Shown: positions 4,664-19,829 of the stretch, one piece after another
Position numbering within the stretch: the first letter of the stretch is position 1
Layout: every line of letters begins with the position of its first letter
Source: Baffinella frigidus
Taxonomy: Eukaryota > Cryptophyceae > Cryptomonadales > Baffinellaceae
Length of the DNA stretch: 20,826 nucleotides
Assembly (NCBI GenBank): GCA_026770585.1
Contig: MU646917.1
Coordinates: 213,977-234,802 of the forward strand
Direction: 5' to 3'
The notes under the pieces: model-generated
Seen by the model: the letters and a program-made list of their open reading frames with translations, nothing else
Databases searched by the model: none
What the model was told of the DNA's origin: nothing
Position numbers and translations under genes: made by a program

Positions 4664-4804
4664 TTACTTTGCCGCGACGACCGTGGAGTGCACGGCCTGC
4701 TCGGCCTGGAGGGTGTCCTCGGCCTCTGAGAGCTTCGCGCGCGTCTGCTCCACCTTGGCGCGGAGCGTCGCGAGGTCCGCCATCGTCTGCTGCTTCAGCG
4801 AAAC
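4664..4804 (-). CDS. Exon 11 (last) of coiled-coil gene
   Basis: 46 codons plus TAA after CCCCCTTGCAG. Charged helix including LRAKVEQTRAKLSEAEDTLQ, ending HSTVVAAK. Repeated GTAAAGCGAC words lie just after the stop. Confidence 0.72.
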   Translation of the reverse strand, partial: VSLKQQTMADLATLRAKVEQTRAKLSEAEDTLQAEQAVHSTVVAAK

Positions 4805-7800
4805 CTGCAAGGGGGTGTTCGTTGTCCTTTATGTTGTGAGCCTCGGTCGGACAGGTGATGAGCCTCGATGGTTGACTAATGAAGGTGTTCGTGGTTAGGT
4901 TTGTCACCGCATTCAGGTTTCGAGTTTCGGGTCGCACCGTGTAGGGTGTAGGGTGTATGTAGGGTGTAGGGTGCAGGGTGTAGGGTGTAGGGTGTGGGTG
5001 TTTTTTCTCCACCCACCCTCTGGGTGGTTATGGGCTGCTAGAGCCCTCACGTCTCGTCCCACCTGTCCACCTGGCGTACAGCGGTCATGTTTAACAATTT
5101 AGTAAACCGTGTTTTCCCCCTGGGGTGTAGGGCCCCACCAGGTCCTCATTGAAAGGGTAGAGACAGGGGGTTTTGGGTTTCGGGTTTCGGGTTTCGGGTT
5201 CGGGTTCAGCTTTTTGGGTGGCCCCCGTTGTGTCACCTGGTCCTCCTTGACAGCCGCGACCTTGACCAAGATATTTTGTACCAAAATGACCACACGGGTT
5301 TGCTGGAATCGACTTTTCGGGTGTAGGGTACAGCGTGTCGGGTGTCAGCACCTGGTCCTCCTTGACAGCGGCCACCTTGACCTCCTGCGCCGCGATCTGC
5401 TCCTTCTGCTCGCTCTCCAAGTTCCGCACCTGCCGTAGGGTGTAGAATTTTTTTTAAAGCCTATTTTCGTGTTAATCCCTTATCCCTTAAGTGGCCAGTA
5501 GGCTCATACGCCCTACCGTAGGACCCTAGGACCAGCCTAGGACCTCAGGCCCCCAAATTTGGAGGCCTGGCCACGTAAGGGATATCATATCTCTTCGTGG
5601 AGGGTTTGGGGTTGGGGATTCAGGGGTTGAGCGATCTGCTCCTTTTGCTCGCTCTTCAGGCTCCGCACCTGGTGTGGTGTTTGGGGTTTGGAGTTTGGGG
5701 TTTGGGGGATGGGGGGTGGGGGGTGGGATGTGAGGTGTGGGGGTTGGGGTGTGGGGTTTGAGATTTGTGGTTTAAGGTTTGGGGTTTGGGTTTCAGGGTT
5801 TGGTGTTTCGGGGTTACAGGGGAACCTCGCTCGAGGTTACCGGGGTACCTCGAGCGAGGAGAGGAGCCTGGGGAGCGAAGTACCCCGGTTGGGGTTGAGG
5901 GTGGACACCTTGTTGACGAGGCGCGCGACACGCACCCCCGTGCTCGACGAGTAGTCCGTGATCCGGTCGTCCAGCTGTTGAGGGTTTGGGGGTTAGGGTG
6001 AGGGTTTAAGGGTTTAAGGGGTTAAGGGGGGACCAGTCGTTCACGCTCAGGGCACAAGTGGGACTTTCGCCGCAAGTTGATTCTGGCGAATAGTCCGTGG
6101 TCCGGTCATCCAGCTGTTTAGGGTTTGGGGTTGAGGGTTTGGGGTCTGGGGTTTCGGGTGTACGGTTTCGGGTGTACGGTTTAGGCAGCACGGGTGGGAA
6201 TTTCAGAACACGACGACGTTTCGGTGTAAAATTGTGTCGTGGTACAAACTGTACAAGTTTTTGCCGTTCTGTGCTGTTGACCATTGGCAGGTGTCTCGTA
6301 CAAATCTGGTACAAATCTCCATCTCTGCACTGGAGAGCGAAACGCGATCCGAAAGCAAACATGCTTTCCCTGCAGATCCCTCCTACGGAACAGCGTGTCG
6401 TTGGCATATGTTGGGAGCATCTAAAACCTAAAGGACCTAAAGGATCCAGAATCAACCGTAGGCGAATTCCTGCGTGTGCCCTGGAGCGGCCGAGGGACAG
6501 CGCTCTGGTCTCATCACGTCCATATCTTCATCATTCGGGTTCAAGGTTTCAGGTTTACGCACCTCCTTCGCGAAGCCATCAACCTTAGCCTGGATCTCAT
6601 CCGGATGAGTATTCATAATGAATACGATTTCGGGGATCTCCGATCCGATTCTCGTGCATCTTAAGGCTCTAAATGAAGTCTAGATAGACGACTGTCTTAT
6701 TTTTACCCCTTAACATACACCAAAATCGTATTCATGATGGATACTCCACGGGATGAGATCGCCTTCTTCTCGGGTGTCGGGTTTCGGGCTCCAGGTTCCG
6801 GGTTCCAGGTTCCAGGTTTCGCGTTTCGGGTCTCGGGTTTCGGGTTCCGGGTTTCGGGTTTCGCATTTCGGATTTGGAGTGTGGGGTTCAGGGTGGTTTT
6901 CGGGTTTACGCACCTCCTTCGCGCGGCCATCGACCTTAGCCTGGATCGCTTTCTTCTCCGTCGCCAGCTGCTTGTGCATCTCGCCTGCGTTTTGGGTTCA
7001 CGGATTACGGCTTAGCGTTTACGGTTAAAGGTGTAGGGTTTGGGGTGGGGGGTTTGGGGTTGGGGGTTGAGGGTTTGGTGGTTGGGGTTTGGGGTTTGGG
7101 ATTTGGGGTTTGGGGCGTGGGGTTTAGGGTTGAGGTTTAGGGTTTAGGGTTGAGGTTTAGGGTTCAGGGTTCAGGGTTCAGGGTTCAGGGTTTAGGGTTT
7201 GCCAAAGCTCAACATGCGTATCGGATGCAGGGTGTACCACCGAGAACGCCGATGCCCCCCTCGATCTTCTTCATTTGAGGGATCAAGGTTTACGGCTTAG
7301 CGTCTAGGGTTTAAGATTCAGAGGTTAGGGTTTGGGATTCAGTATACACTGCCCAGTCCGCTGGGTTCAAGGTCTACGGTTTAGAGTTTAGGGTGAAAGA
7401 TTTAGGGTTTGGGGTTCGGGATCTACCGCCGAGGCCGCCAATGTCCACCTCGATAGGGTTCAGGGTTTACGGCTTGGAGTTTAGGGTTTGGGGGTTGGGG
7501 TTTAGGGTTTGGGGTTCAGGTGGGTTACCACCGAGGCCGCCAATATCCGTACAGAGAGTGTAGGGTGTAGGGTTTGAGATGTAGGGTTTAGGATAAAGGG
7601 TTGAGGGTCTGGGATGCAGGGGATCTACCGCCGATGCCCCCGATGTCCCCCACGATCTTCGCTTAGAGTTTAGGGTTTAAGATGTATGGTTTAGGGTTTG
7701 GGATTCAGGGTGTACGATTCAGGGTTTTAGGGTTTGGGGTTCAGGGGGGGTTGCCGCCGAGGCCGCCGATGTCCTTAGTTAAAGTTGAGGGTTTAGGGTT

Positions 7801-10800
7801 TTAAGATTTAGGGTTGAAGGGTTAGGGTTGAGGGTTTAGGGTTTGGGATTGAGGGGGGTTACCGCCGAGGCCGCCAATGTCCCCCTCGATCTTCTTCATG
7901 ATCATCGCCTTCACGTCCGAGCGCTCTTTCGAGACCTGCAACGGGGGTTGCCGTTTATTGTTCTATTTTACTTGAGGTTTTCTGCTGCGTGTTTTATGTT
8001 TGTAGTTTGGGGTTGAGGGCTAAGGGTTGAGGGTTGAGGGTTTAGGATGTAGGGTGTAGGGTTGAGGGTTTAGGGTTTCGGGTGAAGGGTTTCGGGTGAA
8101 GGGTTTCTGGTGTAGGGTTTCGGATGAGGTTTCGGGTGTAGAGTTTAGGGTGTAGAGTTTCGAGTGTAGTGTTTAGGGTTTAGGGTTTAGGGTTTAGGGT
8201 TTAGGGTACCTTGGCCTCGGCGACCTTGAGCGCGTCCTGCGCCTTCTCGATCGTGGTTGACTGGTGTAGGGTTAAGGGATTAGGGTTTAGGGTTTAGGGT
8301 GCAGTGCTTAGGGTTTAGGGTTTAGGTTTTAGGGTTTAGGGCATTTGGTGTTTGGTGTTAGGTGTTTTGTGTTCAGGGTTTGGTGTTCAGGGTGTGGGGT
8401 TTAGCGTTCAGGTTTCGGGTTTTCGGTTTCAGGGTCCAAGATTTGGTTTTCAGGGTTTATTGTTCAGGGTGCATGGGTGATGGTTTCTGGTTTCAGGTGC
8501 AGGGTGGAGGGTGGGTGCCTCGGAGTCGAACTTGGTCTTCGACAGCTGCACCAGCTCTTTAGGTGGTTTCACATCAGGCGGGTCGAGGGTCTAAGAATTA
8601 AGGATTAGGGTGTAGGGTCTCGTGTTGCGGGTGAAGGGTTTCCGAAAAGGTGGGTTGGGTGCCTCTCGGGGTCGAACTTGGTCTTCATCAGCTGCACCAG
8701 CTCCGCCCGGCGCTCCTCCAGAAAGTCCAACAACCTCACAAAAACTCGAAAAACACAACGGTTCGCGGACGTGCTTGGTACAAACTTTGGTACGGGCGGT
8801 AGTAATTTTTACGGCGGTAGTGATTTTTACTCAACTGTCTGGTGTAGTGGTGGAGGGTGGGTGCCTCGGAGTCGAACTTGGTCTTGGTCAGCTGTACCAG
8901 CTGCGCCTGGCGCTTCTCCAGAAGGTCCAGGGCCTCATCCTGGTTTCAGGGTGTGGGGTTGAGGGGTTGGGGGTTGGGGTTTGGGTTGTAGGGTGTAGGG
9001 TATAGGATATAGGGTTAAGGGTTAAGGGTTAAGGGTTTAGGGTTCAGGGTCTTATCCTGGTCTAGAGGTTAGGGTTCATGCGCCGGCACAGTTGAGCGCA
9101 GGCTCCGCATTACGTAAATTTAGAGCAGCACTAATCTGGGCTCCTCGTTACATAAATTTAGAGCAGAACTCCGTACCAACGATCCAGTACAAAGAGCATC
9201 TAAATGTATTTCATGAGGAGAACAAGTTATCTGCGACAAAGCTACAACATCTGGGGTGGCCCGGAAGGGGAACGAGGCAGACCGGAGCTGACAGTGAGGC
9301 GCCTGCACTAGCAGGGGCACTAGCAGTCTCAATGTATTTGGGCTCACCAATTTGGTAACCCCTGCTCTTTTCCGCTTCCTCCAAAGTTGACGGGTTTGTA
9401 CCGCACACCCAGCATGCCAACCTGAGAATAGTCGGTCAACCCGAGTGAGGCAGAGCTAGGATGCTTTTCGTAGAAGGAGCTTTTTGGATCACTCATATCC
9501 AGGCGTGAGAGTAAAAACAAAGAGAACAAAACAGAAGAAGGCACAGACTATTCTCAAGTTGACATGCTCCCTCTCCGATGTATCTGCACCCTAGCCGTGC
9601 AGGGTGTAGGGTGAAAAATCACCTGCTCGTCCTGCTTAGCCTGACGGATGTGTTCCATAAACCCAGCATGCCAACTCGAGAATAGTCGTTCAACATGAGT
9701 GAGGCAGGGCTAGGATGCAGCGCTAGGATGCAGCGGAGAGGGAGCAACACCATGACGAGGGAAGGTGAGATGCCCTAGCCGTGCAGGGTTCATTCAGGGT
9801 GAAGGGGCGCCTGCTCTTCCTGCTTATCCTCCTGCTCCCAACAACAGAGAGAAGAAAACAAAACAAGACAACAACGTCCATCGGAGCTGGACGAAAACAG
9901 AAGAAGACAACAACATCCATCGGAGAGGGCGCGGCACCTGCTCGCCCTGCTTAGCCATGAGGGACGGTGAGATGCCCTAGCCTTCGAGGGTGGAGGGTGA
10001 AGGGCCAGGTAAGGCGAGATGCCCTAGCCGTGCATGGGTTCATTCAGGGTGAAGGGGCACCTGCTCGTCCTGTTTGGCTTCCTGCTCCCGCTCGATCCGC
10101 TCCAGCAGCTCGCGCACCGCAGGCGCGCTAGATACCTAGCTCTATCCCATTCTATTTGGGCTCACCAATTTGGTGTGGGCTCACCAATTTGGTGAGCCCG
10201 GGCTCTTTTTCGCTCCAAAGTTGACGGATGTGTACCGTGTACCGTACCGCAAGCCCGGAAGGTCAACTGTGCAGGGTAGGGTGGAGGGAGATGGAGACCT
10301 GCTCGTCCTGCTTAGCCTCCTGCTCCCGCTCGATCCGTTCCAGCAGCTCGCGCACCGCCGTCACGTTCCCTGAGGGTTCGGGGTGTGGGGTTCAGGGTTG
10401 AGGGTTTCCTTCGGGTTCAGGGTTGAGGGTTCAGGGTTGAGAGTTGAGGGTTTAGGGTTTAGGGTTGGGGGTTGGGGGTTTAGGGTCTAGGTTAGCTGCT
10501 GGAGCTCGCGCACCGCCGTCACGTTCCCTGCGGGTTCGAGTTCAGGGTTCAGGGTTTGGGGTTTGGGGTTTGGGGTTTGGTGTTTGGGGTGTAGGGTTTA
10601 GGTCCGGTCCAACAGCTCGCGCACCGTCATCACGTTCCCTGAGGGTTTGGGGTTCAGGGTTTAGGGTCGAGGGTTGAGGGTTGAGGGTTGAGGGTTTAGG
10701 TCCGCTCCAGCAGCTCGCGCACCGCCGTCACGTTCTCTTCGGGTTCATGGTTCAGGGATTAGGGTAGGTTTTAGGGTTAAGGGTGTGGGGTTAAGGGTTT

Positions 10801-11686
10801 AGGGTTTAGGGTTTGGGGTTCGGGGTTTAGGGTGTAGGGTGTAGGGTTTAGGGGCCACCCATCGCCACGTGCTTCAGCACGAGGATCTTGCTAGTCACGT
10901 CCCCGATCCCCGAGTCGATCAGTTTCCGGATCTCCGCCTTCTCCGCGACTGCCTCCCCCGTGAGCTTGTCCACCTGGGGGCGGCGGTGCTTGAGCGTGAG
11001 CGGCTCAGCCATGGCGGACAGTGGGGGGGGGCGTTCCAGGTGTCGCAAGGGGGAGGGGCGGGGGTCCTTGGGGGAGCAAGTCGGCTGTGCGAACACAGAG
11101 AGGCGGATAGAGGAAGTTCATGCTCTGATGCGGAGGTGAATGGCGATGAGGGTCAGGTTACCTCCCCCTTGAGCTTGAGGTTGAGGCTGTTCTGCTCTCG
11201 GACGTGTTGCTCCATAGCCTTGACGTCCTTCAGAGATTGCCACACCCGCTCCCGCACCTGAAAATCGTGTAGAAGCAAGGTGTGAGGATCAGATAGGTTC
11301 ACGCCTGGGTTCAAGGCTCGGACCTGAGAGCCACTGGCTGATGACTGGGACAAGCTGGGGCTGGCTTGGAAAGAGAAGCTGCGCACCTGCGACTGGCTCC
11401 ACTTCGCGTGCCCACTCTTGATCGTGGAGCTGTACCCCCCGTCAAACACGTTGAAGTACGGGTCGTGGTTTGGAGATTCGTCGGACTCCCACAGCGCCTG
11501 CCCCTTTGCCAGCTTCCCGACCAGCTCGGTCCTGCCGGCCTCGTCGCCCCCACTCGCAACCAGCACCACGGCAGCCGAGAGAAGGCAGGCACACACCACC
11601 GCGGCGACCCTGTATCTCCTCCCGGCTCCCGGAGTGTCCAACAGTTGCGGCCGCACCGCCCCAACCCCCTCGTCGAGCCCCGACAT
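4664..11686 (-). CDS. Membrane-anchored coiled-coil protein, 11 exons (reconstructed)
   Basis: Exons in sense order: 11387-11686, 11162-11257, 10859-10973, 10299-10369, 8865-8939, 8210-8260, 7863-7935, 6914-6984, 5909-5974, 5352-5429, 4664-4804. Joined, they give 378 codons plus TAA with no internal stop; phase-1 joins (exons 3/4 and 7/8) each complete a Gly codon. All ten acceptors are CAG; nine donors are GT and one is GC. Residues about 27-45 form one hydrophobic helix after a 26-residue N-terminus, then about 330 mostly charged helical residues with heptad-like spacing. This suggests a single-pass membrane protein with a coiled-coil domain, possibly a tether or scaffold. No family recognised. 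Introns 3-10 are largely telomere-like CCCTAAA repeats in the sense strand and hold partial exon copies. Alternative: exons 1-2 read on to a TGA (134 residues) and a second gene starts at the ATG at 11012, which has a strong Kozak context and is in frame with exon 3. Gene existence is well supported; single versus two genes is open. Confidence 0.65.
5004..5120 (+). repeat. 117-base dispersed repeat, copy 2
   Basis: Near-identical to 3375-3491; inside the last intron of the coiled-coil gene. Confidence 0.85.
5139..5268 (-). pseudogene. Downstream 3'-edge copies of exon 10
   Basis: 5237-5268 repeats the end of exon 10 (VKVAAVKEDQ and its donor, CAG|GTGACA). A weaker match to the last five codons is at 5139-5155 with GTGGGG after it. 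Neither has the 5' half or an acceptor in frame, so they are read as relics. Confidence 0.6.
5352..5429 (-). CDS. Exon 10 of coiled-coil gene
   Basis: 26 codons after CTACGGCAG, starting VRNLESEQKEQIAAQEVKVA and ending AVKEDQ. Donor CAG|GTGCTG. A 5'-half copy lies upstream (5631-5668) and a 3'-half copy downstream (5237-5268). Confidence 0.7.
5481..5584 (+). mobile_element. MITE family B, copy 3
   Basis: TATCCCTTAAGTGGCCAGTA left end, CCACGTAAGGGATA right end, inside intron 9 of the coiled-coil gene. Interior CCTACCGTAGGACCCTAGGA. Confidence 0.8.
5631..5668 (-). pseudogene. Upstream 5'-edge copy of exon 10
   Basis: Acceptor CACCAG followed by VRSLKSEQKEQIA, then an abrupt switch to telomere-like repeat. 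It keeps the acceptor and loses the 3' half. Confidence 0.65.
5815..5889. mobile_element. Diverged family A-like MITE
   Basis: CAGGGGAACCTCGCTCGAG followed by a nested inverted repeat, ACCGGGGTACCTCGAGCGAG to GAGCGAAGTACCCCGGT. Shorter than standard copies, in the intron just beyond the exon 9 donor. Confidence 0.55.
5909..5974 (-). CDS. Exon 9 of coiled-coil gene
   Basis: 22 codons after CCCTCAACAG: LDDRITDYSSSTGVRVARLV then NK. Donor AAG|GTGTCC, phase 0 at both ends. Confidence 0.65.
6087..6113 (-). pseudogene. Upstream 5'-edge copy of exon 9
   Basis: AAACAG acceptor followed by LDDRTTDYS, then homology stops. Lies 139 bases upstream of the intact exon. Confidence 0.6.
6319..6446 (+). repeat. 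Dispersed repeat family E, copy 2
   Basis: Matches 3710-3834 and 13780-13905 (CTGCACTGGAGAGCGAAACG, GGCATATGTTGGGAGCAT, AAAGGACCTAAAGGATC). Inserted in intron 8 of the coiled-coil gene. Confidence 0.8.
6563..6596 (-). pseudogene. 3'-edge copy of exon 8, interrupted by a mobile element
   Basis: Encodes IQAKVDGFAKE followed by GTGCGT, as in exon 8. The rest of the match (GATCGCCTTCTTCTC on the plus strand) resumes at 6757 after a 160-base insertion. Confidence 0.65.
6597..6756. mobile_element. 160-base MITE inserted in a relic exon
   Basis: Imperfect inverted ends: TCATCC..ATGAGTATTCATAATG..CGATTT and the complement AAAATCGTATTCATGATGG..GGGATGA. GATC occurs directly before (6593-6596) and after (6757-6760), consistent with a 4-base target duplication. 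Removing element plus one GATC restores continuity with exon 8. No other copy is in the window. Confidence 0.65.
6914..6984 (-). CDS. Exon 8 of coiled-coil gene
   Basis: 71 bases after AACGCAG. The first two bases complete the Gly codon from exon 7, then EMHKQLATEKKAIQAKVDGR and AKE. Donor GAG|GTGCGT. A broken second copy lies downstream (6563-6596 and 6761-6773). Confidence 0.65.
7021..7862 (+). repeat. Telomere-like degenerate repeat (intron 7)
   Basis: GGGTTTAGGG / GGGTTTGGGG / GGGTTCAGGG units on the plus strand, so CCCTAAA-like in the transcript. Interrupted by five partial copies of exon 7. Confidence 0.8.
7238..7774 (-). pseudogene. Five 3'-edge copies of exon 7
   Basis: Copies at 7755-7774, 7629-7661, 7529-7548, 7427-7454 and 7238-7274. 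Each ends with an IGGLGG, IGGIGG or IGVLGG-coding edge, followed by GTAGAT, GTAACC, GTACAC or, in one, GCAACC. The longest reaches KKIEGG. All lie downstream of the intact exon and lack its 5' part and acceptor. Confidence 0.7.
7863..7935 (-). CDS. Exon 7 of coiled-coil gene
   Basis: 73 bases after CCCGTTGCAG; starts VSKERSDVKAMIMKKIEGD and ends IGGLG plus one base. Donor GCG|GTAACC, phase 1. The IGGLG end is repeated five more times downstream in the following intron. Confidence 0.7.
7990..8510 (+). repeat. Telomere-like repeat around exon 6
   Basis: Includes about five near-perfect TTTAGGG units at 8171-8207 directly beside the exon 6 donor, and GGTTTCGGGTG variants at 8065-8150. Confidence 0.8.
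8210..8260 (-). CDS. Exon 6 of coiled-coil gene (51 bases)
   Basis: 17 codons, STTIEKAQDALKVAEAK, phase 0 at both ends. Acceptor ACACCAG, donor AAG|GTACCC. Both flanks are TTTAGGG-type repeat. No partial copies of this exon were found. Confidence 0.65.
8519..8740 (-). pseudogene. Two downstream copies of exon 5
   Basis: 8661-8740 covers most of exon 5 (LLDFLEERRAELVQLMKTKF, then DPE) but lacks the CAG acceptor. 8519-8557 keeps only ELVQLSKTKFDSE and the GAG/GCACCC edge. Both lie on the donor side of the intact exon. Confidence 0.65.
8865..8939 (-). CDS. Exon 5 of coiled-coil gene (GC donor)
   Basis: 25 codons after AAACCAG, beginning DEALDLLEKRQAQLVQLTKT and ending KFDSE. The only sensible donor is GAG|GCACCC, a GC donor. 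Another partial copy downstream keeps the same GAG/GCACCC junction. An upstream GT inside the exon (CTG|GTACAG) is the alternative. Confidence 0.55.
9409..9570. mobile_element. Inverted-repeat element in intron 4
   Basis: AGCATGCCAACCTGAGAATA at 9412 is repeated inverted at 9547-9568. A third half-copy with CCAACTCGAGAATAGTCG is at 9664-9690. The AT-richer interior is open on the minus strand but shows no recognisable protein. Confidence 0.55.
9623..10120 (-). pseudogene. Downstream 3'-edge copies of exon 4
   Basis: Four copies: 10061-10120 (nearly complete, AVRELLERIEREQEAKQDEQ), 9938-9956 (AKQGEQ), 9811-9838 (EQEDKQEEQ, now followed by GCGCCC) and 9623-9642 (QAKQDEQ). All keep the donor edge and none has a usable in-frame acceptor. 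Between them a unit with GATGCCCTAGCCGTGCA and GTTCATTCAGGGTGAAGGGG repeats. Confidence 0.7.
10299..10369 (-). CDS. Exon 4 of coiled-coil gene (only complete copy in an array)
   Basis: 71 bases after CCCTCAG, starting in phase with exon 3. Encodes NVTAVRELLERIEREQEAKQ then DEQ, an amphipathic helix. Donor CAG|GTCTCC. It is flanked on both sides by partial copies of itself. Confidence 0.7.
10374..10858 (+). repeat. Telomere-like repeat, intron 3
   Basis: GGGTTCAGGGTTGAGGG, GGTTTAGGG and GGTTTGGGG units on the plus strand fill the gaps between the three partial exon copies. Confidence 0.8.
10498..10737 (-). pseudogene. Upstream 5'-edge copies of exon 4
   Basis: Three copies: 10701-10737 (NVTAVRELLER), 10603-10638 (CTCAG acceptor kept, NVMTVRELLDR) and 10498-10527 (NVTAVREL). 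All end in telomere-like repeat instead of the exon's 3' half. All lie upstream of the intact exon. Confidence 0.7.
10859..10973 (-). CDS. Exon 3 of coiled-coil gene
   Basis: 115 bases after CCGCCCCCAG; starts VDKLTGEAVAEKAEIRKLID. It ends in phase 1 (ATG G|GTGGCC), and the Gly codon is completed by exon 4. An ATG at 11012 in GTCCGCCATGG context is in frame through the acceptor, so a variant starting MAEPLTLKHRRPQ is possible. Confidence 0.65.
11162..11257 (-). CDS. Exon 2 of coiled-coil gene
   Basis: 32 codons, phase 0 at both ends. The acceptor is preceded by TTCTACACGATTTTCAG. Donor GAG|GTAACC. Encodes a charged helix including KDVKAMEQHVREQNSLN. If the donor is not used, translation ends two codons later at TGA, giving the 134-residue alternative. 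Confidence 0.65.
11387..11686 (-). CDS. Exon 1 of coiled-coil gene (start and membrane anchor)
   Basis: 100 codons from ATG at 11686. Contains the hydrophobic run VAAVVCACLLSAAVVLVAS at residues 27-45, preceded by basic residues (GRRYR). Donor CAG|GTGCGC, followed by an ordinary 129-base intron without telomere-like repeats. The frame is open upstream to 11764, but the 11686 ATG places the anchor near the N-terminus. Confidence 0.7.
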
Positions 11687-11801
11687 TGTGCAGCTATTTC
11701 GGAAATATTGACATTTGAGATAAGTTGACAGGTTGACTAAACGTTGTTTTTTAGATACAGGCAATATCGGAGGGGTAGCAGGCTTTTTGTGTGGTTATCA
11801 T

Positions 11802-11908
11802 GATGTTCCCCCACTCGTCACAAAAATCTGAGGGCACTTTCGTAGAACAGAATTGAAAGTTGGTCCACAAACGTATTCTCAGATTTTCGTGGAGAGTGGG
11901 GGAACATC
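11802..11908. mobile_element. Inverted-repeat element upstream of coiled-coil gene
   Basis: GATGTTCCCCCACT..AAAATCTGAG on the left and CTCAGATTTTCGTGGAGAGT..GGAACATC on the right, 107 bases. It begins 116 bases upstream of the 11686 ATG, so it may lie in the promoter or 5' leader. Confidence 0.7.
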
Positions 11909-12079
11909 TTCAAAAACGGCTCTTGGTGAGTTTTACTTCACTCAGGCGGGCCCTTCCGGAGAAACAAAAACGTTTTCCTCCACTTTTGTCAACTAATTTC
12001 AGGGGGTTGTCGATAACTTGTGGTCTGCTACTCCACCCTCAATATATGTGCGTCTTGTTGGCAATAGGATTAGCCGGTT

Positions 12080-12400
12080 TCTGCAGCGATCCTTTTGCCT
12101 GTCTCTCTCCCTTAACTTGACTGACCTCCGTACATTGGGGGAAACCTCTACATTTGTTTGGTTTGACATCTGAGGTATCCGTGGTTGGAGCTCCTATGAG
12201 CCTAACGATGGGATACCATATGGGCCTGCAGCCGACTTGCTTTATCCTGGTGTGTGTGCGAGCCTGTACCTCTTTGGTCTAACTCAAACGCCCGATGAGG
12301 TTCCTCTTTAGCCGGTTTCTGCTGCGATCCTCTGCACCCTTTAGCCGGTTCCTGCTGCGATCTTTAGCCGGTTTCTGCTGCGATCCTCTGCATGGCTTCT
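12080..12400 (+). repeat. Dispersed repeat with TTTAGCCGGTTTCTGCTGCG units
   Basis: TTAGCCGGTT(T/C)CTGC.GCGAT occurs four times (about 12070, 12308, 12342, 12364). The segment 12100-12250 (CCTCCGTACATTGGGGGAAA, GGTTTGACATCTG) recurs at 13535-13700. Confidence 0.7.
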
Positions 12401-13125
12401 CTGCAGAACCAGTTCCAGTGTCCACCTATGTTGGGAGCTCGAAGAACCTAAAAGACCTAAAGCTCGAAAAACTTAAAGGACCTGAAATGCACCTGGTGGT
12501 GTGATGTGATCCGAGAGGAAGCATGGCCTTTCTGCAAGATAAGTTCCGGTGTCCGCCTATGTTTGGAGCTCGAAGAACCTGAAGGACCTAAAGGACTCCT
12601 GCAGGATCTTTTCAACAAAATGGCGTGTCGTTTGACTCTGTTGGGAGAAATCAAAACCTAAAGGACCAGCAGTTCCTTCCCCTGGCGTGAAGAGTTCGTG
12701 TTGGTAAACTTAAACCTCGCTTTCCCCCCTTTCTTTTTTTAGACTTCGACTTGTGATAACCAGGAACTTATTTTCAGCTCGCCTCATTTCTGCGCCGTGC
12801 ATTTCTCTTTTGAATAAAGTCAATAAGTGTCAATGAATAAGGACCTAAAGCAAAGGACAGTATGGTAGTCCGAAAGGACCCACAGGGCAGTATCCTTGGT
12901 GTATCCCCATACATGGGAAGTGGCAGTTTCTTGCCCTAGGATTCGACCGGTGATAACGCGGATTTTTTCCCAAACTCGCCGCATTTCTGCGCCTTGCAAT
13001 TCTCTTTCAAATCAACTCAATACGTGCATGGTGATCCGAAAGAAAGCAGTGCTTTTCTGCAGAACCAACCAGTCCCAGTGTCCGCCTATGTTAGGGGTTC
13101 GAAGAACCCAAAGGACCTAAAGGAT
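12401..13125 (+). repeat. Dispersed repeat cluster (CCTAAAGGA family)
   Basis: Repeats TGTCC(A/G)CCTATGTTGGGAGC, GATCCGAAAGGAAGC-like words and AAAGGACCTAAAGGA. A 95-base unit with CATTTCTGCGCC occurs twice (about 12765 and 12940). No protein recognised. Confidence 0.7.
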
Positions 13126-13286
13126 GGGAAACTTCATTTTGCGCCCCTGTAAGGGGCCTTCCCAATTTTCTGACCAAAAAAACACTGAACACTAAACACT
13201 AAACACTAACTGAAGCGTGTGGGTAGGCATTGCCGCGAGTGGGTGAGCTCTAACGCGTGTGGATTGGCTCTGATGCGTGTAACTTG

Positions 13287-13386
13287 CCCCTAACCCCTAA
13301 CCCCTACCCCCTACCCCCTACCCCCTAACCCCTAACCCCTAACCCCTAACCCCTAACCCCTAACCCCTAACCCCTAACCCCCTAAC
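13287..13386 (+). repeat. CCCCTAA tandem array
   Basis: About fourteen tandem units of CCCCTAA/CCCCTAC, a homogeneous 7-base variant unlike the degenerate TTTAGGG introns. Flanked by CACTAAACACTAAACACTAA and by GCGTGTGG-type short repeats. Confidence 0.9.
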
Positions 13387-13519
13387 GTCACGCGTGAACG
13401 CTTATGCGGGTGGGCACTATAATGGGTCGGTGTTTGACAGTGCTAACGGGATTTTCAAAATCCCCGATCTCCTCCCCCCACTGTGTAACCTGGGGGAAAC
13501 CCTTACACATCCACCTCTC

Positions 13520-13905
13520 TCACTCTCTCGCTCGCTGACTTCCGTACATTGAGGGAAACCTCTACATGCGTTTGGTTTGACATCTGTCTCATCTCACCCC
13601 CCCACACAACCCCTCTCACCTTGTGGGGTGTTGGTGATTGAAGCTCTTAAACTTCAACCATGGGATACTATGAGCCTCAAAGGAGGCTGACTTGGGTTCG
13701 GTGCGTGTCAGTGATCATGGGATCGATATCGCATACCTTCACCCACCCCAACAGAGCCGCCCTGTATCCCCTCTTCACGAGCCACTGCACTGGAGAGCTA
13801 AACGCGATCCGGAAGCAAACATGCTTTCCCTGCAGATCCCTTCTACGGAACGGCGTGTCGTTGGCATATGTTGGGAGCATTTAAAACCTAAAGGACCTAA
13901 AGGAT
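13520..13905 (+). repeat. Second copies of the 12100 repeat and of family E
   Basis: 13535-13700 matches 12120-12260 with TTCCGTACATTGAGGGAAAC. 13755-13905 matches 3695-3834 with CCCTCTTCACGAGCCACTGC. No coding sequence is supported. Confidence 0.75.
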
Positions 13906-13963
13906 CTGAAATCACATTTTCGGACCACCATGTAAAACATGCTGGTTTCAAAATGTGATTTCA
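13905..13963. repeat. Hairpin, ~15-base arms
   Basis: CTGAAATCACATTTT and AAAATGTGATTTCAG are exact complements separated by about 28 bases. It directly follows the end of the family E repeat. Confidence 0.8.
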
Positions 13964-14055
13964 GTTTTTCGAGAACATCATCTCAGATTTTTGTTAGCCC
14001 TCATGCTTTTAGCCAACCAACACACATGGCGGATGTCCTAGAGGGGTTTCTTGGC

Positions 14056-14157
14056 TATCCCTTACGTGGCGGGTAGGCTCATACGCCCTACCGTATGACC
14101 CTAGGACCTGCCCAGGACCTCAGAGGGTCTTTTGGACCCTTCTCCACTTAAGGGATA
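14056..14157 (+). mobile_element. MITE family B, copy 4
   Basis: TATCCCTTACGTGG left end, CCACTTAAGGGATA right end, TA on both borders. Interior GGACCTGCCCAGGACCT. Confidence 0.78.
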
Positions 14158-14189
14158 AGAACACCTGTGCACGAGGGTCGGTCGGTCGT

Positions 14190-14260
14190 CGTTTTCATAA
14201 ATTAAGAATACCGCAAGCAACACCGGCAGATCTCCGTTTGCTTAAATTATGAAAACGCAC
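14190..14260. repeat. Inverted repeat, TTTCATAAATTAAG arms
   Basis: CGTTTTCATAAATTAAG and CTTAAATTATGAAAACG pair across a 37-base spacer. Probably a further short non-autonomous element. 14260-14465 shows no gene. Confidence 0.6.
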
Positions 14261-14501
14261 GAAAGCAGTCGGTCCCCGTGTTCTTTAAGATGAGAAAACG
14301 AACGAAAGGGCGGCGTTCTTCTCAACGATTTTAAAATTTGATCACAGGGTGAGTTGGGAGGGGGTTTGATAAAATTTGCAAGGCTTCACCTCTCGGAAAC
14401 CCCATTCTTCTCGGGAAATGTTAGCTTTTTTTTCGGGCCCAAAATGCTCTAGCTCCATTCCCCGGGGGAATGAGCGATGTTGTATGAGCGGTGTACCCCG
14501 G

Positions 14502-14666
14502 TACAGGGGTACCTCGCTCATAAGAAACTACCCTAGGACTCCCATAGGGCCCTAAGCATAGCCCTGATGTAGGGCCCTTGGGAGGGGGGGCTTTTTATGA
14601 GCGAGGTACCCCAGTACTGTAGGGTCCTAAGGGGAGGCGTTTTCTTGAGGGTGAGGTACCCCTGTA
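14502..14666. mobile_element. MITE family A, copy 7 plus adjoining half copy
   Basis: A complete copy (14502-14616) is followed directly by the right half of another (14617-14666, ending GTGAGGTACCCCTGTA). It is preceded by a diverged half at 14469-14503 (GAGCGGTGTACCCCGGTA). This looks like insertion of one copy into another. Confidence 0.75.
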
Positions 14667-14873
14667 GCACTCGAGCGCATGAGAGGACTGGCGGAATTTT
14701 TCGAGAGTGTAATAAATATCTGGATTCCCGGCAACCAGGCTGCACTGCTTCCAACGATTTGCAGCGAGACACCCCACCCCTTGCACACGCCTAAAGTTGA
14801 TTCGGGATAAAGTTGATTCGGGAGCCTCCAGCGACCTAGAGAGACCTCAAATAGACCTCACATAGACCTCAAA

Positions 14874-15041
14874 TACAGGGGTACCTCGCTCATAAGAAAC
14901 GCGCCCCCCCCAGGACCCTACCGGGGTTCCTCGCTCATGAGAAACCGACCCCCCCTAGGGCCCTACAGTAGCCCTATGCCTAGGACCCTATGGTGGTCCT
15001 AGGGGGGGTGGGCCGTTTCTTATGAGCGAGGTACCCCTGTA
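14874..15041. mobile_element. Nested family A MITEs
   Basis: TACAGGGGTACCTCGCTCAT begins at 14874. A second left end (GGGGTTCCTCGCTCATGAGA) appears about 50 bases later, and a single right end closes at 15041. Two copies have merged. It lies about 80 bases beyond the stop codon of the GDT1-like gene. Confidence 0.78.
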
Positions 15042-15123
15042 CCAGGCAGGACTGCTTCGAACCACTTACAGCGAGACACACATTCCACGTGCCTAAAGTT
15101 GATTCGGGAGAGCCTCGAGCAAC

Positions 15124-15192
15124 CTAGAAGACTCCTAGGGCGGTTGTGGCCGCGAAGACGAGAAAGAGGCACCCCGAGAAGTACGAGATAAT
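15124..15192 (-). CDS. GDT1-like exon e (last)
   Basis: [20 protein letters not shown] then VF and TAG, after CCCTAAACGCAG. A hydrophobic helix matching the third helix of the UPF0016 repeat. Confidence 0.78.
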   Translation of the reverse strand: MISYFSGCLFLVFAATTALGVF

Positions 15193-18100
15193 CTGCGTTT
15201 AGGGTTTGGTGTTTGGTGTTTGGGGTTTTGGGTTTTGGAGTTTGGGGTTTAGGGTTTAGGGTTTGGGGGTTGGGATTTGAGGTTGAGGGTTTAGGGTTTA
15301 GGGTTTAGGGTTTAGGGTTCAGGGCTCAGGGTTTAGGCGTTAAGGCAGGACACAAGGCTTGCAGGTGAGCCGACGGCCCAGTCAGAAACGGTGTAAGCCC
15401 TCCCACTCAGCAGCCACTGTGGCCCTTCCCCCCCGGATTTCCGGGGGAGGGTTCAAGCCCCTTGCCCTGAAACGAACTGCAATTTGTACCACAGTCGTTT
15501 AGATGGACACATCATCGAAGGCGCCGGTGGCTGCTGAGTGGCTAGGGGTTACACAAGATATGTGCTGAAACAGACTTGTGTGCGTTTCCGCACATTCATA
15601 GGCTAACGGCGTGAAAATGGGGTAGTTAGGCATACGGTATTGCCTAGGACCTCCTACCGTAGGCCGAGGGATCCTAGGACCAACAAGTCTCGGGCTACGG
15701 TAGGAGGTCCTAGGCAATACCGTAGGCCTAACTACCCCATTTTCAGACCGTTACCCTATTAACATGTCCAGTGTCACCACGCCTGTACCACGAGTGTGGG
15801 CGGGATCCCAACAGAGCGCAGGGCACTGCTCTGCACGCGTCAACATTTTGTCAAAGTCAATTCCCCCATAAAAACGTCTACTTAGCAAAGAGGCACCCAT
15901 AATGGGTATTTGGATTTCCAGTTAAGTTGACAATTTGCATGGGGGTTAACTTTAACAAAAATTTCCCACTAGCAGGGCAACGCCAGCGAGTGTGTCCGGA
16001 TTCGCCTGGGTGGTGTTCATCGCCCTAGACGAACCACCTTACAGCCTAGGGTAATTACCCACACATCCTGGTTCAAAGACTCGGACGCTTGTTGCGTTCA
16101 AACCGGGAGAGCTGCCGGAAACGGCTGCACGAAACCCCAAACCCTAAAACCTAGACCCTAAACCTCAACCCCAACCCCTCAACCTACACCCTTAACTCGG
16201 GCCCCCTCAACGTACACTTAACTCGAGGCTACTCTCGTCGCCTGGAAAGACCTAGTCCAGGACGAACCCGTCCTGAGGCGGGCTCGTCCTGGGACGGGCC
16301 CGCCTCAGGAGGATCTATTTTGGGACGAGCCCGCCTCAGACCGTTACGTCGACTGTATCTGGGGTACAGGGGCACCTCGCCATAAGAAAGCGCCTCCCCC
16401 CCCTGGACAACCATAGGGCCCTAGGCATAGGGCTGCTGTAGGGTCCTACGGGGGGGCGCTTTCTTATAAGCGAGGTACCCCTGTAAGCCCTTTGTCGCCC
16501 TTGGTTTAGGGTTTTCTTAAACCCCAAACCCCAAACCACAACCCGAACCCCCGAACTCGACACCCCAACGCGCGAAAAGGGGCGAGACTCTCGGTACAGG
16601 GGTACCTCGCTCACAAGGAATCGCCCACCCCCTAGGACAACCATAGGGTCCTAGGCATAGGCCTACCGTAGGGTCCTAAGAGCGTTTCCTTCACCTGTAA
16701 GCCCTTTTAGGGTAACACAAGACATGTGCTAAAACACACTTGCGTGCGTTTCCGCATATGTCCAGTGTCACGCCCGTACAGGGGTACCTGGCTCATAAGA
16801 AAGCGCCAAACCCCAAAACCCCCTACCCGAAGCTACGAACCTTTTGGGGATTTACCCGTGGGCTCAGGTACTTAGCCAGGTAGACCCCCGAGATCACCGC
16901 GATACCTGTTTCGAGAAGGGGTGGGGGGGGTGGGGTGAGTAATTACGGAATTCGGAAATTGCGGTCAGTTCACACATTGTATGACGAATCGGTTGCTGTT
17001 GGGCTGACTAATAGTATTATAGTGCTGACTAATAGTATTGTAGTGCTGTCTCATAGTGTTGCAGTGCTGGCTCAGGTACTTCCACGCAAGAGTGGAGGGC
17101 AGAGTGCCATGTAGTAAAAATAGCCAAATCTGGCTATTTTGAAAAGTTCATCAGTCAACATTCTCCACCTAGAAAAATCGAAATTTCGGAAAGTTGATAC
17201 AAATTCCGTGTGAACTGACTTGTTTTCCCAGGTCAGTCTTACACTCTTGCGTGGTTGGCCTGATAGACTCAGGAAATCACCGCGACACCTGTTTCGAGGA
17301 GGGAGAGAAGAATAAGCTCATCATACGGACACGCACCACGATACCACCAGCCCTCACGATTGGACCAAATCGTCGATTTTAGATTTTGGATTTACCCTTG
17401 AATTACCCTTGCAGAGACCCCGGATCTGGGGTCTCTGCAAGGGTGAATCTCAAGTCTAAAATCGATGATTTGGCCCCACCGGGAGGGTTGGTGGTAGGGT
17501 CCTACGGCAGGGATAGTCCTAGGATCATCGAAGCACCGTCTTTGAGAGTGAGCGACCGCAGCGAAGCGTTACAGAGAGAACAGTGCTGAGATGGCCCGAG
17601 GGGAAGCTCCTGGGGGTGCAGAGCCATTGCTTGTCCACACGGTGGACCACACAGCGGACTTCGAAGGGATTCCGTAAATAAGCCGTAAGCGATAATACCT
17701 AGGACCCTATGGTAGGCAATACTTAAGATCCTACGGTAGGTGGACTGCGAGCTTTTCAGGACCCCCGGAATCCAGGAGTTATAATTTTGTACCGGAAAAG
17801 GGCTAACATTGGTGGAATTGAACGAGATTCCTTGTAAAAAATAAAAACCTCGGAGTGACCCTGAGGAGAACAATCGAACAAGGGCACTGTGTGTGTGTGT
17901 GTGGGAAGGGGGGGGGGGGTACGTCTGGAACCCCGGCTGGTTGGGACGGTGCGCTAAACTCTGAAGAGAGCCCTAACTCCTGAAGAGGGCCCTGACCCCT
18001 AGAGAGATGAGCCCTAAACCCTGACCCCCAAACCCTAAAGAGAGCCCTGGACCCCAAAGAGGGGCCTAAATCCTAAAGCGATGCGCCCTTGCCCCTCACT

Positions 18101-19829
18101 CGCGATGCGGCCTACACCCTGAAGAGATGAGCCCTGACGAGGGCTTACCGGTAGCAAGGGCGTGTCCCCCGATAGCGCCCAACCCGACAGCGACGGGGTT
18201 GTAGGCCGCGGAGAGCGGCTGGCTGGGACGGTGCCCGAAACTCTTGAACATAGTCTTACACCCTAAAACGAGGGCCATAAACCGTAAAGAGAGCCCTAGA
18301 CCCTAAAGAGAGCGTTAAAGCTCCCTAAAGAGAGCTGTAAAGCTCCCTAACGCAATGAGCCTTAAACCCAAAACCGTAACGAATGCTTACCGGTAGCAAG
18401 AGCGTGTCCTCCGATAGCGCCCAACCCGACAGCGACGGGGTTGTAGGCTGCGGAGAGCGCTACGGTTGCGAAGAGATGAGCCTCATCTCCTGAAGAGATG
18501 CGGCCTACATCCTGGGAGATGCGCCCTACATCATGAAGAGATGCGGCCTACACCCTGAAGAGATGAGCCCCAACGAGGGCTTACCGGTAGCAAGGGCGTG
18601 TCCTCCGATGGCACCCAGACCGACGGCGACGGGGTTGTAGGCCGCGGAGAGCGCGACGGTTGCGATGAAGGACCGATCGCCTATTTCGGCCGCGAAGACC
18701 TGTGTGTCCGGGTAGAGACGTTTTCACATATGTTGGCCATACAAAAACTAAGAAACAACGCCAAGAGTGGGCGTTGCTGGTACTAAATCGTCAACGTGCG
18801 TCAATAAAAAATCCCGAAGTCGGAGGTTATCGTCAACGTTTGGAACTACAACGATTGGAACTGAAAGAGAGAGAGAAAATGCGTTTGTTACCAAAGAAGA
18901 ACATGAGCACCGTACCAGGAGGAACGATTAGAGGATCTTTCATGTGAGCACTCTGAACCCTAACCACTAAACCCTATACGCTAGAACCTAAGTCATAACC
19001 CCTAACCCCTCAACCCTAACCCCTGACCCTAGACCCTAAACCCTAAGCCGTAAACCCTAAACCCAGGAGTACCAGGAGGAACGCTGGGAGAATCTTGTTG
19101 GACGTCCCCGCCAACTTGTCTTTCACTCTATGTCGCAACGCGTCCATCTAAAGAATTCCCGGCACAAATCCCGGTATTTTAAATCCTGAAAGTGCGAAAT
19201 GGCCGTCCATCTAAAGGATTTCCATTACACATCCCGGTATTTTAAATCCTAAAAGTGCGAAATGGATCCAATGCCAAAAGCCGAATCCGAGATATGTTTG
19301 AGGTGACGGGACTATTACCAGCAGGAACGCCTGGAGAATCTTCTTGCGCGTCCCCGCCAACTTGTCTTTCACCTGGGTTTGGGGTTTGGGGTTTGGGGAT
19401 TGGGGTTTGGGGTTTAGGGTTTAGGGTTCAGGGTTTGGGGTTTAGGTTTTAGGGTTCGGGGTTTGCGGTTTGCGGTTTGGGGTCTGAGGTTTGGGGTTTG
19501 GGGTTTAGGAGTGAGGGTCTAGGGTTTAGGGTTTAGGGTTTAGGGTTTAGGGTTTAGGGTTTCGGGGTTTGGGGTGTGGGGTTTCGGGTTTCGGGTTTCG
19601 GGTTTCGGGTTTCGGGTTTCGGGTTCCGGGTTTCGGGTTTCGGGTTCCGGGTTCCGGCTGAGGGTTTAGGGTTTGGAGTTTCGGGGTTTGGGGTTTGGGG
19701 TTTGAGGTCTCGGGTTTCGAGGGTCGGGTTTCGGGTTTCGGGTGTAGGGTTTAGGGTTCAGGTTTTAGGGTCTAGGGTTTAGGGTTTAGGGTTTACCAAT
19801 TCTAATGAGTCTTTCGCGTCATCCAACTC
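15124..19829 (-). CDS. GDT1/TMEM165 (UPF0016) cation transporter, C-terminal five exons
   Basis: Exons in sense order: 19797-19829, 19319-19372, 18585-18699, 16856-16905, 15124-15192. They join in frame to 106 residues and TAG. Residues 1-22 are polar and start acidic ([11 protein letters not shown]). Residues 23-47 form a membrane helix bearing E34-I-G-D-R-S39, the family signature E-x-G-D-[KR]-[ST] that lines the ion path. Helix 2 follows (about 53-78, with [11 protein letters not shown]). Helix 3 (85-106) holds [14 protein letters not shown] and ends at the stop. GDT1-family proteins move Ca2+/Mn2+ against H+ in Golgi or chloroplast membranes and usually have two such three-helix repeats. 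This is therefore probably the second repeat, with the acidic segment as the end of the inter-repeat linker. The ending resembles chloroplast members slightly more, a weak inference. The 5' exons with the first repeat were not found. All five acceptors are CAG; donors are GTAAAC, GTAATA, GTAAGC and GTAAAT. Confidence 0.8.
15197..15345 (+). repeat. Telomere-like repeat beside the last GDT1-like exon
   Basis: GGGTTTGGTG/GGGTTTAGGG units on the plus strand, with about four perfect TTTAGGG units at 15291-15320. Sense strand of the gene is C-rich here. Confidence 0.8.
15391..15554. mobile_element. Inverted-repeat element family G
   Basis: GTGTAAGCCCTCCCACTCAG on the left and its near complement ending GGGGTTACAC on the right, with arms of about 30 bases (ACTCAGCAGCCAC shared). 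Interior has a CCCCCCGGATTTCCGGGGGA stem. Related end sequences occur at 16698-16720 without the interior. Confidence 0.7.
15596..15765. mobile_element. Long-arm MITE family C
   Basis: Arms of about 65 bases: AGGCTAACGGCGTGAAAATG..GTATTGCCTAGGACCTCCTA and the complement ending CAGACCGTTACCCTATTAA. The interior carries GGGATCCTAGGACC. A paralogous site without the insert is at about 16720-16772. Confidence 0.78.
15839..15988. mobile_element. AT-rich inverted-repeat element
   Basis: CATTTTGTCAAAGTCAATTC..CCCCAT and ATGGGGGTTAACTTTAACAA..AAATTT are imperfect complements over about 25 bases across roughly 100 bases. In the last GDT1-like intron. Confidence 0.55.
16130..16215 (+). repeat. Telomere-like repeat, C-rich on plus strand
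   Basis: AACCCTAAAACCTAGACCCT and related words, inverted relative to the tract at 15197-15345 in the same intron. Followed at 16256-16340 by a GC-rich palindromic run (CAGGACGAACCCGTCCTGAG, GACGGGCCCGCC) also echoed at 654-690 and 1078-1096. Confidence 0.75.
16365..16485. mobile_element. MITE family A, copy 8
   Basis: TACAGGGGCACCTCGCCATA left end, AAGCGAGGTACCCCTGTA right end, 121 bases, standard core. In the last GDT1-like intron. Confidence 0.85.
16595..16699. mobile_element. MITE family A, copy 9 (right arm deleted)
   Basis: Complete left arm and core, then GAGCGTTTCCTTCACCTGTA: part of the right arm is lost. A lone left arm is also at 16777-16806 (TACAGGGGTACCTGGCTCAT). Confidence 0.75.
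16856..16905 (-). CDS. GDT1-like exon d
   Basis: Two bases complete Gly68, then [16 protein letters not shown]. Acceptor TTCTCGAAACAG, donor CGG|GTAAAT. Continues helix 2 as in the family. Confidence 0.78.
17004..17066 (+). repeat. 21-base tandem repeat, three units
   Basis: GCTGACTAATAGTATTATAGT and two variants in tandem. In the intron between GDT1-like exons c and d. Confidence 0.8.
17271..17288 (-). pseudogene. Upstream 5'-edge copy of GDT1-like exon d
   Basis: CTCGAAACAG acceptor followed by codons for VAVIS and then TGA. It keeps the polypyrimidine tract (CTTCTCTCCCTCCTC) and acceptor and loses the 3' part. Confidence 0.65.
17361..17478. mobile_element. Palindromic element in GDT1-like intron
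   Basis: Imperfect arms of about 55 bases (TGGACCAAATCGTCGATTTT / AAATCGATGATTTGGCCCCA) around a perfect 17-base stem ACCCTTGCAGAGACCCC with loop GGATCT. Confidence 0.75.
17940..18380 (+). repeat. CCCTAAAGAGAG-type intron repeat
   Basis: Units such as CCCTAAAGAGAGCCCTAGAC and GAAGAGATGAGCCC. C-rich on the plus strand, so G-rich in the transcript, the opposite of the upstream introns of the same gene. Confidence 0.7.
18149..18218 (-). pseudogene. 3'-edge copy 2 of GDT1-like exon c
   Basis: [20 protein letters not shown]-coding sequence and donor ACCG|GTAAGC intact; the EIGDRS-coding part is absent. Confidence 0.72.
18391..18471 (-). pseudogene. 3'-edge copy 1 of GDT1-like exon c
   Basis: [20 protein letters not shown] and the rest of the exon end with GTAAGC donor. 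Homology stops just after the signature motif would be expected. Confidence 0.72.
18585..18699 (-). CDS. GDT1-like exon c (signature motif)
   Basis: 115 bases after GGACACACAG, starting [20 protein letters not shown] and ending GHALAT plus one base. Donor CCG|GTAAGC, the strongest donor in the window. Confidence 0.85.
18702..18947 (+). other. Open frame of uncertain status
   Basis: 81 codons on the opposite strand inside a GDT1-like intron, with a basic, coil-like stretch ([20 protein letters not shown]). Its ends overlap the exon c acceptor region and a relic of exon b. No family recognised; probably non-coding or an inserted fragment. Confidence 0.2.
18916..19126 (-). pseudogene. Two downstream copies of GDT1-like exon b
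   Basis: 19073-19126 is a full-length copy ([18 protein letters not shown], then GTACTC) whose CAG acceptor has become ATAGAG. 18916-18943 keeps only the donor-side edge and contains an in-frame TAA. Confidence 0.68.
19319..19372 (-). CDS. GDT1-like exon b
   Basis: [18 protein letters not shown] after CAAACCCAG; donor CTG|GTAATA. Supplies the basic approach and first half of the helix that continues into exon c. Confidence 0.75.
19376..19795 (+). repeat. Telomere-like repeat with TTTCGGG block
   Basis: Contains about six perfect TTTAGGG units (19515-19560) and about ten TTTCGGG/TTCCGGG units (19579-19656). Fills the intron between exons a and b. Confidence 0.85.
19797..19829 (-). CDS. GDT1-like exon a (33-base micro-exon)
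   Basis: [11 protein letters not shown] between TGCATTTCCTTTTCAG and donor TTG|GTAAAC, phase 0 on both sides. Embedded in telomere-like repeat on both sides. Confidence 0.65.

Follow-up and report, generated by a model that had tools for sequence, protein, structure and literature searches.

Introns of two genes in a 20,826-nucleotide stretch of the cryptophyte Baffinella frigidus (GenBank assembly GCA_026770585.1, contig MU646917.1, positions 213,977 to 234,802; the whole stretch is referred to here as the window) contain partial copies of the exons that they adjoin. Copies upstream of an intact exon keep its 5′ edge and copies downstream keep its 3′ edge, an arrangement that recurs at kinesin exons on other contigs. 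We consider it very likely that these copies arose through repeated short tandem duplications spanning exon–intron junctions, together with selection against complete exon copies. The observations behind this explanation are the tandem structure of four young arrays, the positional rule, its recurrence, neutral-looking changes in the copies and a homologous protein in which the exons are single. The sample is one genome and three gene families (gene A, GDT1 and the kinesins) with exon edges set by hand, and the assembly behind the searches comprises 382,457,362 bases in 1364 contigs.

Both genes lie on the minus strand. Gene A was delineated by its open frame and phase-consistent GT/GC-AG joins; its predicted product is coiled-coil-like and has one hydrophobic stretch, and Pfam gives no match for it at E 0.01. 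The homologue P0005 (317 amino acids, a single open frame) shows 77% identity across 67% of the query. Its collinearity with gene A begins at the end of exon 2 and extends to exon 11, with each exon represented once; another homologue, P0006, agrees with it except for 19 residues absent in the exon 8 region. Exons 4, 5 and 7 to 10 were placed by the open frame and the comparison with P0005. Gene B is represented by its 3′ half and belongs to the GDT1 family: its spliced product covers 75 of the 75 positions of PF01169 (E 4.7e-24), and the closest named GDT1 protein match, from Guillardia theta, reaches 75% identity over 79% of the query. The choice of 19372–19319 as the real exon b is supported by the residue before Ala-Phe, which is Gln in this exon and Gln, Ser and Gln in three homologues, whereas the downstream copy has Pro. 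The intact features are as follows.

4664–11686, minus strand: gene A
11686–11162, minus strand: gene A exons 1 and 2
10973–10859, minus strand: gene A exon 3
10299–10369, minus strand: gene A exon 4, 71 nucleotides (nt)
8865–8939, minus strand: gene A exon 5, 75 nt, GC donor
8260–8210, minus strand: gene A exon 6
7863–7935, minus strand: gene A exon 7, 73 nt
6914–6984, minus strand: gene A exon 8, 71 nt
5909–5974, minus strand: gene A exon 9, 66 nt
5352–5429, minus strand: gene A exon 10, 78 nt
4804–4664, minus strand: gene A exon 11
15124–19829, minus strand: gene B, 3′ half, GDT1 family
19829–19797, minus strand: GDT1 exon a
19372–19319, minus strand: GDT1 exon b
18699–18585, minus strand: GDT1 exon c
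16905–16856, minus strand: GDT1 exon d
15192–15124, minus strand: GDT1 exon e

Smith–Waterman alignment of 14 exons of the two genes to both strands of the window, with the reversed exons as decoys, revealed 21 partial exon copies at a score of at least 31 and one further copy split by an insertion. The best decoy scored 36 and the next 30; one decoy therefore lies above the score-31 line. Copies belong to 9 of the 14 exons and are listed with the exon nucleotides that they retain.

10701–10735, minus strand: exon 4 copy, upstream, nt 2–36, 5′ edge kept, score 65
10603–10638, minus strand: exon 4 copy, upstream, nt 1–36, 5′ edge and CAG kept, score 52
10503–10527, minus strand: exon 4 copy, upstream, nt 1–25, score 50
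10061–10120, minus strand: exon 4 copy, downstream, nt 12–71, donor GT kept, score 100
9938–9956, minus strand: exon 4 copy, downstream, nt 53–71, score 33
9811–9839, minus strand: exon 4 copy, downstream, nt 43–71, donor GC, score 48
9623–9642, minus strand: exon 4 copy, downstream, nt 52–71, score 40
8665–8729, minus strand: exon 5 copy, downstream, nt 11–75, score 90
8519–8556, minus strand: exon 5 copy, downstream, nt 38–75, score 61
7755–7774, minus strand: exon 7 copy, downstream, nt 54–73, score 35, below the best decoy (36)
7629–7660, minus strand: exon 7 copy, downstream, nt 42–73, score 44
7531–7548, minus strand: exon 7 copy, downstream, nt 54–71, score 31, weak alone
7427–7454, minus strand: exon 7 copy, downstream, nt 46–73, score 51
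7240–7274, minus strand: exon 7 copy, downstream, nt 37–71, score 50
6563–6596, minus strand: exon 8 copy, downstream, nt 38–71, score 53; nt 27–41 lie at 6757–6771, score 25, past an inverted-repeat insertion
6087–6113, minus strand: exon 9 copy, upstream, nt 1–27, score 39
5631–5668, minus strand: exon 10 copy, upstream, nt 1–38, score 56
5237–5267, minus strand: exon 10 copy, downstream, nt 48–78, score 52
19073–19126, minus strand: GDT1 exon b copy, downstream, all 54 nt, donor kept, without normal acceptor
18391–18474, minus strand: GDT1 exon c copy, downstream, nt 32–115, score 123
18149–18217, minus strand: GDT1 exon c copy, downstream, nt 47–115, score 108
17069–17288, minus strand: GDT1 exon d copy, upstream, nt 1–34 at 17288–17255 and nt 33–45 at 17081–17069, with an inverted-repeat insertion at about 17082–17258 between them

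All six upstream copies (exon 4 three times, exon 9, exon 10 and GDT1 exon d) keep the 5′ edge within 1 nt, and all 16 downstream copies (exon 4 four times, exon 5 twice, exon 7 five times, exon 8, exon 10, GDT1 exon b, and GDT1 exon c twice) keep the 3′ edge within 2 nt. The first-pass annotation had described about twenty partial copies in the two genes, and every copy that it named was recovered by the alignment. The truncated ends in the window are nearly devoid of splice sites: GT follows none of the 6 upstream ends, and AG precedes 1 of 17 downstream ends. Across the 14 exons and both window strands, no antisense copy rises above decoy level, and additional matches at a score of 25, one of them antisense, are themselves at decoy level. 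The GDT1 exon b copy has GA directly before it and an AG one base further up, with no pyrimidine tract. The two halves of the GDT1 exon d copy score 28 and 26, neither of which exceeds decoy level by itself, and were accepted since they abut once the insertion is removed. Because inverted-repeat insertions split both this copy and the exon 8 copy (at 6593–6760), both copies predate the insertions.

By eye only, a second GDT1 exon b copy can be discerned at 18942–18913 and, upstream of exon 5, a 12-nt piece of that exon at about 9050–9067. GC donors occur at exon 5 (8865), at one exon 4 copy (9811) and probably at the kinesin exon C941:57617, and GC-AG introns may be in use in this organism.

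The claim that unrelated genes are affected gains support from other contigs. Kinesin domain matches define 45 exon-like regions, of which 43 were examined and 2 fall outside the examined regions. Two of these 43 turned out to be copies of neighbouring exons; of the remaining 41 exons, 14 have copies on the same strand, the best score at each being at least 52, while decoys reach at most 32. The borderline exon C941:57617 (score 36) is excluded from these 14, although it is included in the curated hits described below. For kinesin cores of at least 180 nt, copies are present at 1 of 12 (C23:405798). A tblastn search yielded 29 further exon stretches, six of which are copies of other exons (five recognised by score, one by reading). 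Among the other 23, searched on the same strand only, 5 have copies, 8 in total. All four upstream copies start at the first base of the stretch; three of the four downstream copies reach its end within 1 nt, and one ends 31 nt short. Overall, 28 of 78 exons have copies. A blastn comparison with the analysed loci placed 232 of 323 hits in other loci, and the 60 inspected were all in overlapping or other kinesin loci.

A curated set of 26 exons with hand-set edges was searched for hits with a score of at least 33 within 3000 nt. It gave 73 hits on 23 exons, all at most 850 nt from their own exon (one downstream copy of C23:408857 is counted as two). The near edge alone is kept in 59 hits, neither edge in 13, and both edges in one, the GDT1 exon b copy; none keeps only the far edge. 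Thus, 31 of 38 upstream hits have the near edge and none the far edge, and 29 of 35 downstream hits have the near edge and one, again GDT1 exon b, the far edge. The edge-keeping pieces carry 19–88 nt of exon, even next to an exon of 467 nt. For 29 exons, the curated set shows no opposite-strand match. The positional rule had been proposed as having no exception, which stands for the 22 window copies and for the absence of hits with the far edge only, but not for the internal pieces that are taken up below.

The rule is not a distinct law. Near-edge retention follows from geometry alone whenever a tandem duplication breaks once in the exon and once in its intron. A duplication from the intron to mid-exon gives intron, acceptor and 5′ part, followed by intron, acceptor and whole exon; one from mid-exon to the intron gives whole exon, donor and intron, followed by 3′ part, donor and intron. 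The rule therefore argues for tandem duplication over dispersed copying. In line with the earlier proposal that units spanning the exon–intron junction were duplicated in tandem, Tandem Repeats Finder (TRF), which is blind to exons, detected arrays that start or end inside the exon at 4 of the 26 exons. Together with the 73 same-strand hits, these head-to-tail units with 80–94% match represent direct tandem duplication that includes exon sequence.

C632: array from exon nt 67 of 112, period 204, 94% match
C112: array from exon nt 27 of 90, period 252, 88% match
C506: array to exon nt 66 of 102, period 369, 91% match
C123:73984: array to exon nt 64 of 101, period 201, 80% match

The 40 nt of intron beside the splice site reach at least 75% identity in 15 of 60 near-edge copies, compared with 0 of 60 controls. 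These flanks, which have diverged more than the exon parts, have 65% identity overall, compared with 56% in unrelated flanks. The copy farther from the exon is the more diverged in 33 of 52 pairs, a weak trend.

We therefore propose the following course of events. Short direct tandem duplications with units of about 110–370 nt would arise often along these genes. With one breakpoint in an exon and the other in the adjacent intron, the product would be an intact exon beside a piece that bears the near splice site alone. Such single-splice-site pieces would lengthen the intron, need not alter the mRNA and could persist, whereas a duplication with both splice sites would supply a further exon that can be spliced in, and selection would remove it. 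Repetition would build arrays, with acceptors and 5′ parts upstream and 3′ parts and donors downstream, which would then decay. The lengthening of introns, as previously suggested, is borne out in gene A, where 2855 of the 5569 nt of introns 3–10, about half, lie within the span of copies (arithmetic from the coordinates), and P0005 is without copies.

It is the absence of complete copies, not the edge rule, that is the informative fact. A complete exon occurs in 1 of the 73 curated hits, without a normal acceptor, and the other 72 lack the far edge. Blind breakpoints would be expected to give 9.9 complete copies over 30 exon sides, and none was seen with both splice sites (P ~2.4e-6). As complete copies would be spliced in, we infer that selection removes them, and this is the strongest, though an indirect, reason to regard splicing as a filter on the duplications. 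Judged from their sequence, partial copies would plausibly be ignored under exon definition. Splicing between a copy and the intact exon was considered and rejected, the truncated ends in the window being without splice sites except for the single AG.

Several points weigh against this explanation. The expectation of 9.9 assumes that the spacing of the nearest copy equals the unit length, that breakpoints are uniform and that the two sides are independent; moreover, a duplication process that avoids whole exons could account for their absence instead of selection. The sense strand of the introns shows no shortage of AG or GT (observed/expected 1.00 and 1.11), and there is no sign there of a general purge of cryptic splice sites: splice-like motifs number 36 sense against 33 antisense for the 3′ type and 106 against 87 for the 5′ type. 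The near edge is missed by more than 3 nt in 13 of the 73 curated hits (7 upstream, 6 downstream), five of them off by 6–9 nt and eight by at least 20 nt. At the other 22 of the 26 exons, TRF gives no array with a period of at least 50 over the exon, and with so few similar intron flanks the junction-spanning unit is not directly visible for most copies. Finally, the kinesin scan has three opposite-strand matches, all on C138, namely an exact one of 23 nt near 386859 and two at 390113, where the core is doubtful and has an in-frame stop.

The copies could alternatively be functional half-exons that are used in alternative transcripts and maintained by selection. Mismatches between copy and exon amount to 48/1171, 60/1166 and 239/1156 at the three codon positions (4.1, 5.1 and 20.7%), and this third-position excess taken alone looks like constraint on the copies. 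Differences between copies also peak at the third position (61/79/232 over the pairs compared), and splice dinucleotides are well preserved, with AG kept in 29 of 31 acceptors and the dinucleotide unchanged in 26 of 29 donors. However, position 2 does not change more rarely than position 1, and the slow loss of splice dinucleotides is no more than expected at 4–5% change per site. Among 1116 codons, 220 differ synonymously and 102 otherwise; there are 2 stops, and 3 of 73 hits have a net frameshift. In a neutral simulation at 4.6% per site, 3.8 stops arise, the mean BLOSUM score is –0.50 (–0.45 observed) and 107 amino-acid changes result, the last figure agreeing partly by construction as the rate comes from the same data. 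For exons with at least two copies, changes private to one copy number 27/31/55 by codon position, changes in which the intact exon stands apart from every copy 1/2/24, and mixed sites 1/1/26. These private and shared counts assign most of the synonymous difference to the exon's side. Together with the truncated ends that lack splice sites and with P0005, which contains each exon once, this makes functional half-exons very improbable, and the copies look neutral and fairly young.

That the arrays are assembly artefacts is extremely unlikely. Tandem repeats are hard to assemble, but collapse or expansion errors would yield identical copies, whereas most copies have diverged from their exon, by as much as 25% and mainly synonymously, and they recur on many contigs. 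Another possibility is that an exon break was repaired by inserting an exon-spanning copy, which would leave paired upstream and downstream pieces with a common breakpoint. The end of the upstream piece and the start of the downstream piece do lie at most 10 nt apart in five exons, and a permutation by absolute length gives P values of 0.06 and 0.02. A permutation of fractions in the 9 exons with both kinds of piece gives 0.79 and 0.61, however; at C23:405798 (467 nt) the upstream pieces end at 54–72 and the downstream piece starts at 386, and at many exons the pieces are confined to one side. Such paired insertion was therefore set aside as highly unlikely and mostly unsupported by permutation. 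Telomerase, or the insertion of telomere repeats at breaks, might also drive the duplication, since the introns are rich in CCCTAAA-like heptamers and several truncated window ends run into them (exon 4 upstream, exon 7 downstream). Yet a C-rich heptamer lies within 30 nt of 22 of 60 truncated ends, compared with 27% of random nearby 30-mers, and the upstream junctions at C123:70647, among the clearest arrays, carry sequence that is not telomere-like. The tie between telomere-like repeats and duplication breakpoints, which the first-pass annotation had drawn, is thus weak, and a telomere-driven origin is unlikely.

The telomere-like repeats themselves are strongly strand-biased. Counts over 65,501 bases of intron in 30 stretches (8.8% N) give 664 sense and 50 antisense C-rich heptamers of the CCCTAAA type, and 24 sense and 272 antisense occurrences of TTTAGG. 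The loci counted are the gene A introns (4805–10858), gene B and kinesin loci L039–L058; over whole loci the C-rich heptamers number, sense/antisense, 798/49 in the kinesins, 124/0 in gene A and 55/21 in gene B. CCCTAAA repeats contain neither AG nor GT, whereas TTTAGGG repeats contain both, with the AG preceded by a run of T. A splicing filter could thus account for the strand bias, although the undiminished AG, GT and splice-like motifs on the sense strand speak against it.

After functional half-exons, assembly error, paired insertion and telomere-driven duplication, junction-spanning tandem duplication with selection against complete copies is the explanation that we retain, and the divergence of the copies may say more about their origin. 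The median third-position difference is 18.5%, and it does not correlate with the other differences (rho –0.11, P 0.39, 62 copies), a result that the score threshold can bias. Gene A diverges by 5.8/6.3/11.4% at the three codon positions, compared with 3.6/5.1/22.6% in the kinesins. On the simple reading, most copies either derive from a different exon allele or are linked to one today, the divergence at neutral, synonymous sites being some 15–25%. Synonymous-biased divergence with otherwise neutral changes points to great allelic diversity or to exchange between homologues. Among the 40 candidates scored, of 4081, there was no second haplotype of the window. Faster change of the exon through conversion from its copies was weighed by argument only and rejected. 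A joint and more tentative account would have a splicing filter on intron growth admit both the pieces with one splice site and the splicing-silent strand of the telomere repeats, the pieces being snapshots of diverged alleles acquired through unequal exchange between homologous chromosomes in a hyperdiverse population. We regard this account as possible but doubtful, its probability being lowered by the lack of depletion of AG, GT and splice-like motifs.

Other elements in the window were noted in passing. Two short dispersed repeats lie in gene A introns, at about 4997–5124 and at 5480–5586, with dozens of places in the assembly in all among the matches listed, nearly all 91–99% identical. 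Copies of an inverted-repeat element, which start like TACAGGGGTACCTCGCTCATAAGAAA and end in its complement, are found at 440–1440, 4445–4570, 14510–15050 and 16360–16800. A single open frame on the minus strand at 1961–2983 is likely a gene; its match to DUF702 is weak and below the cut-off, and four proteins were found for it, the window's own included.

Tandem exon duplication, as in mutually exclusive exons, produces copies that are used and have a splice site at either end. It likewise repeats exon sequence in the neighbouring intron, whereas here no hit among the 73 was observed to have both splice sites. Introners, which are mobile and dispersed, give rise to new introns. They too build intron sequence from repeated sequence; the pieces described here, sought within 3000 nt, adjoin their own exon. 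Intronic minisatellites share arrays of 200–370 nt units with unequal copies; in the present case the end of the array falls within an exon, and pieces lie on either side of one exon. Introner elements are treated in the available part of an Amoebophrya paper (PMC7789003).

The closest established process is intron gain by tandem genomic duplication of exonic AGGT segments, as set out in the available parts of PMC3443670 and, for Drosophila cases, PMC2891723, with a potato case in that of PMC4974935. As far as the available part of PMC3443670 goes, it is alike in that a short duplication includes exon sequence and splice signals and splicing can leave the mRNA unchanged. There an AGGT segment within the exon is doubled and the new intron lies between, whereas here the copies are intronic, the unit takes in a single real splice site and several units surround one exon. 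A duplicated exonic AGGT supplying both splice sites was not seen at the window copies, as their truncated ends show. Plant telo boxes are telomere motifs in genes that are commoner in introns 1 and 2 of Arabidopsis genes, according to the available part of PMC3022908. They are described there as single short motifs tied to 5′ regions, in contrast to the strand-biased arrays that fill introns gene-wide here, and the words orientation and strand are absent from that available part. Within the part of the literature listings considered, we recognised no report of serial exon-edge copies in introns or of strand-biased telomere-like intron repeats. The mechanism had been put forward as undescribed; tandem duplication of splice signals is already known in intron gain, but intron growth by serial junction-spanning duplications around one exon looks new in scale and place.

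These duplications would provide a concrete route by which introns lengthen without harm to the mRNA. Exon pieces that have an acceptor or a donor alone, next to real exons, form a natural experiment on splicing tolerance. Exon pieces can also mislead gene and domain searches, as in the two kinesin matches that were pieces of neighbouring exons. If the diverged-allele reading is true, introns in this organism would hold a readable record of the alleles of their neighbouring exons.

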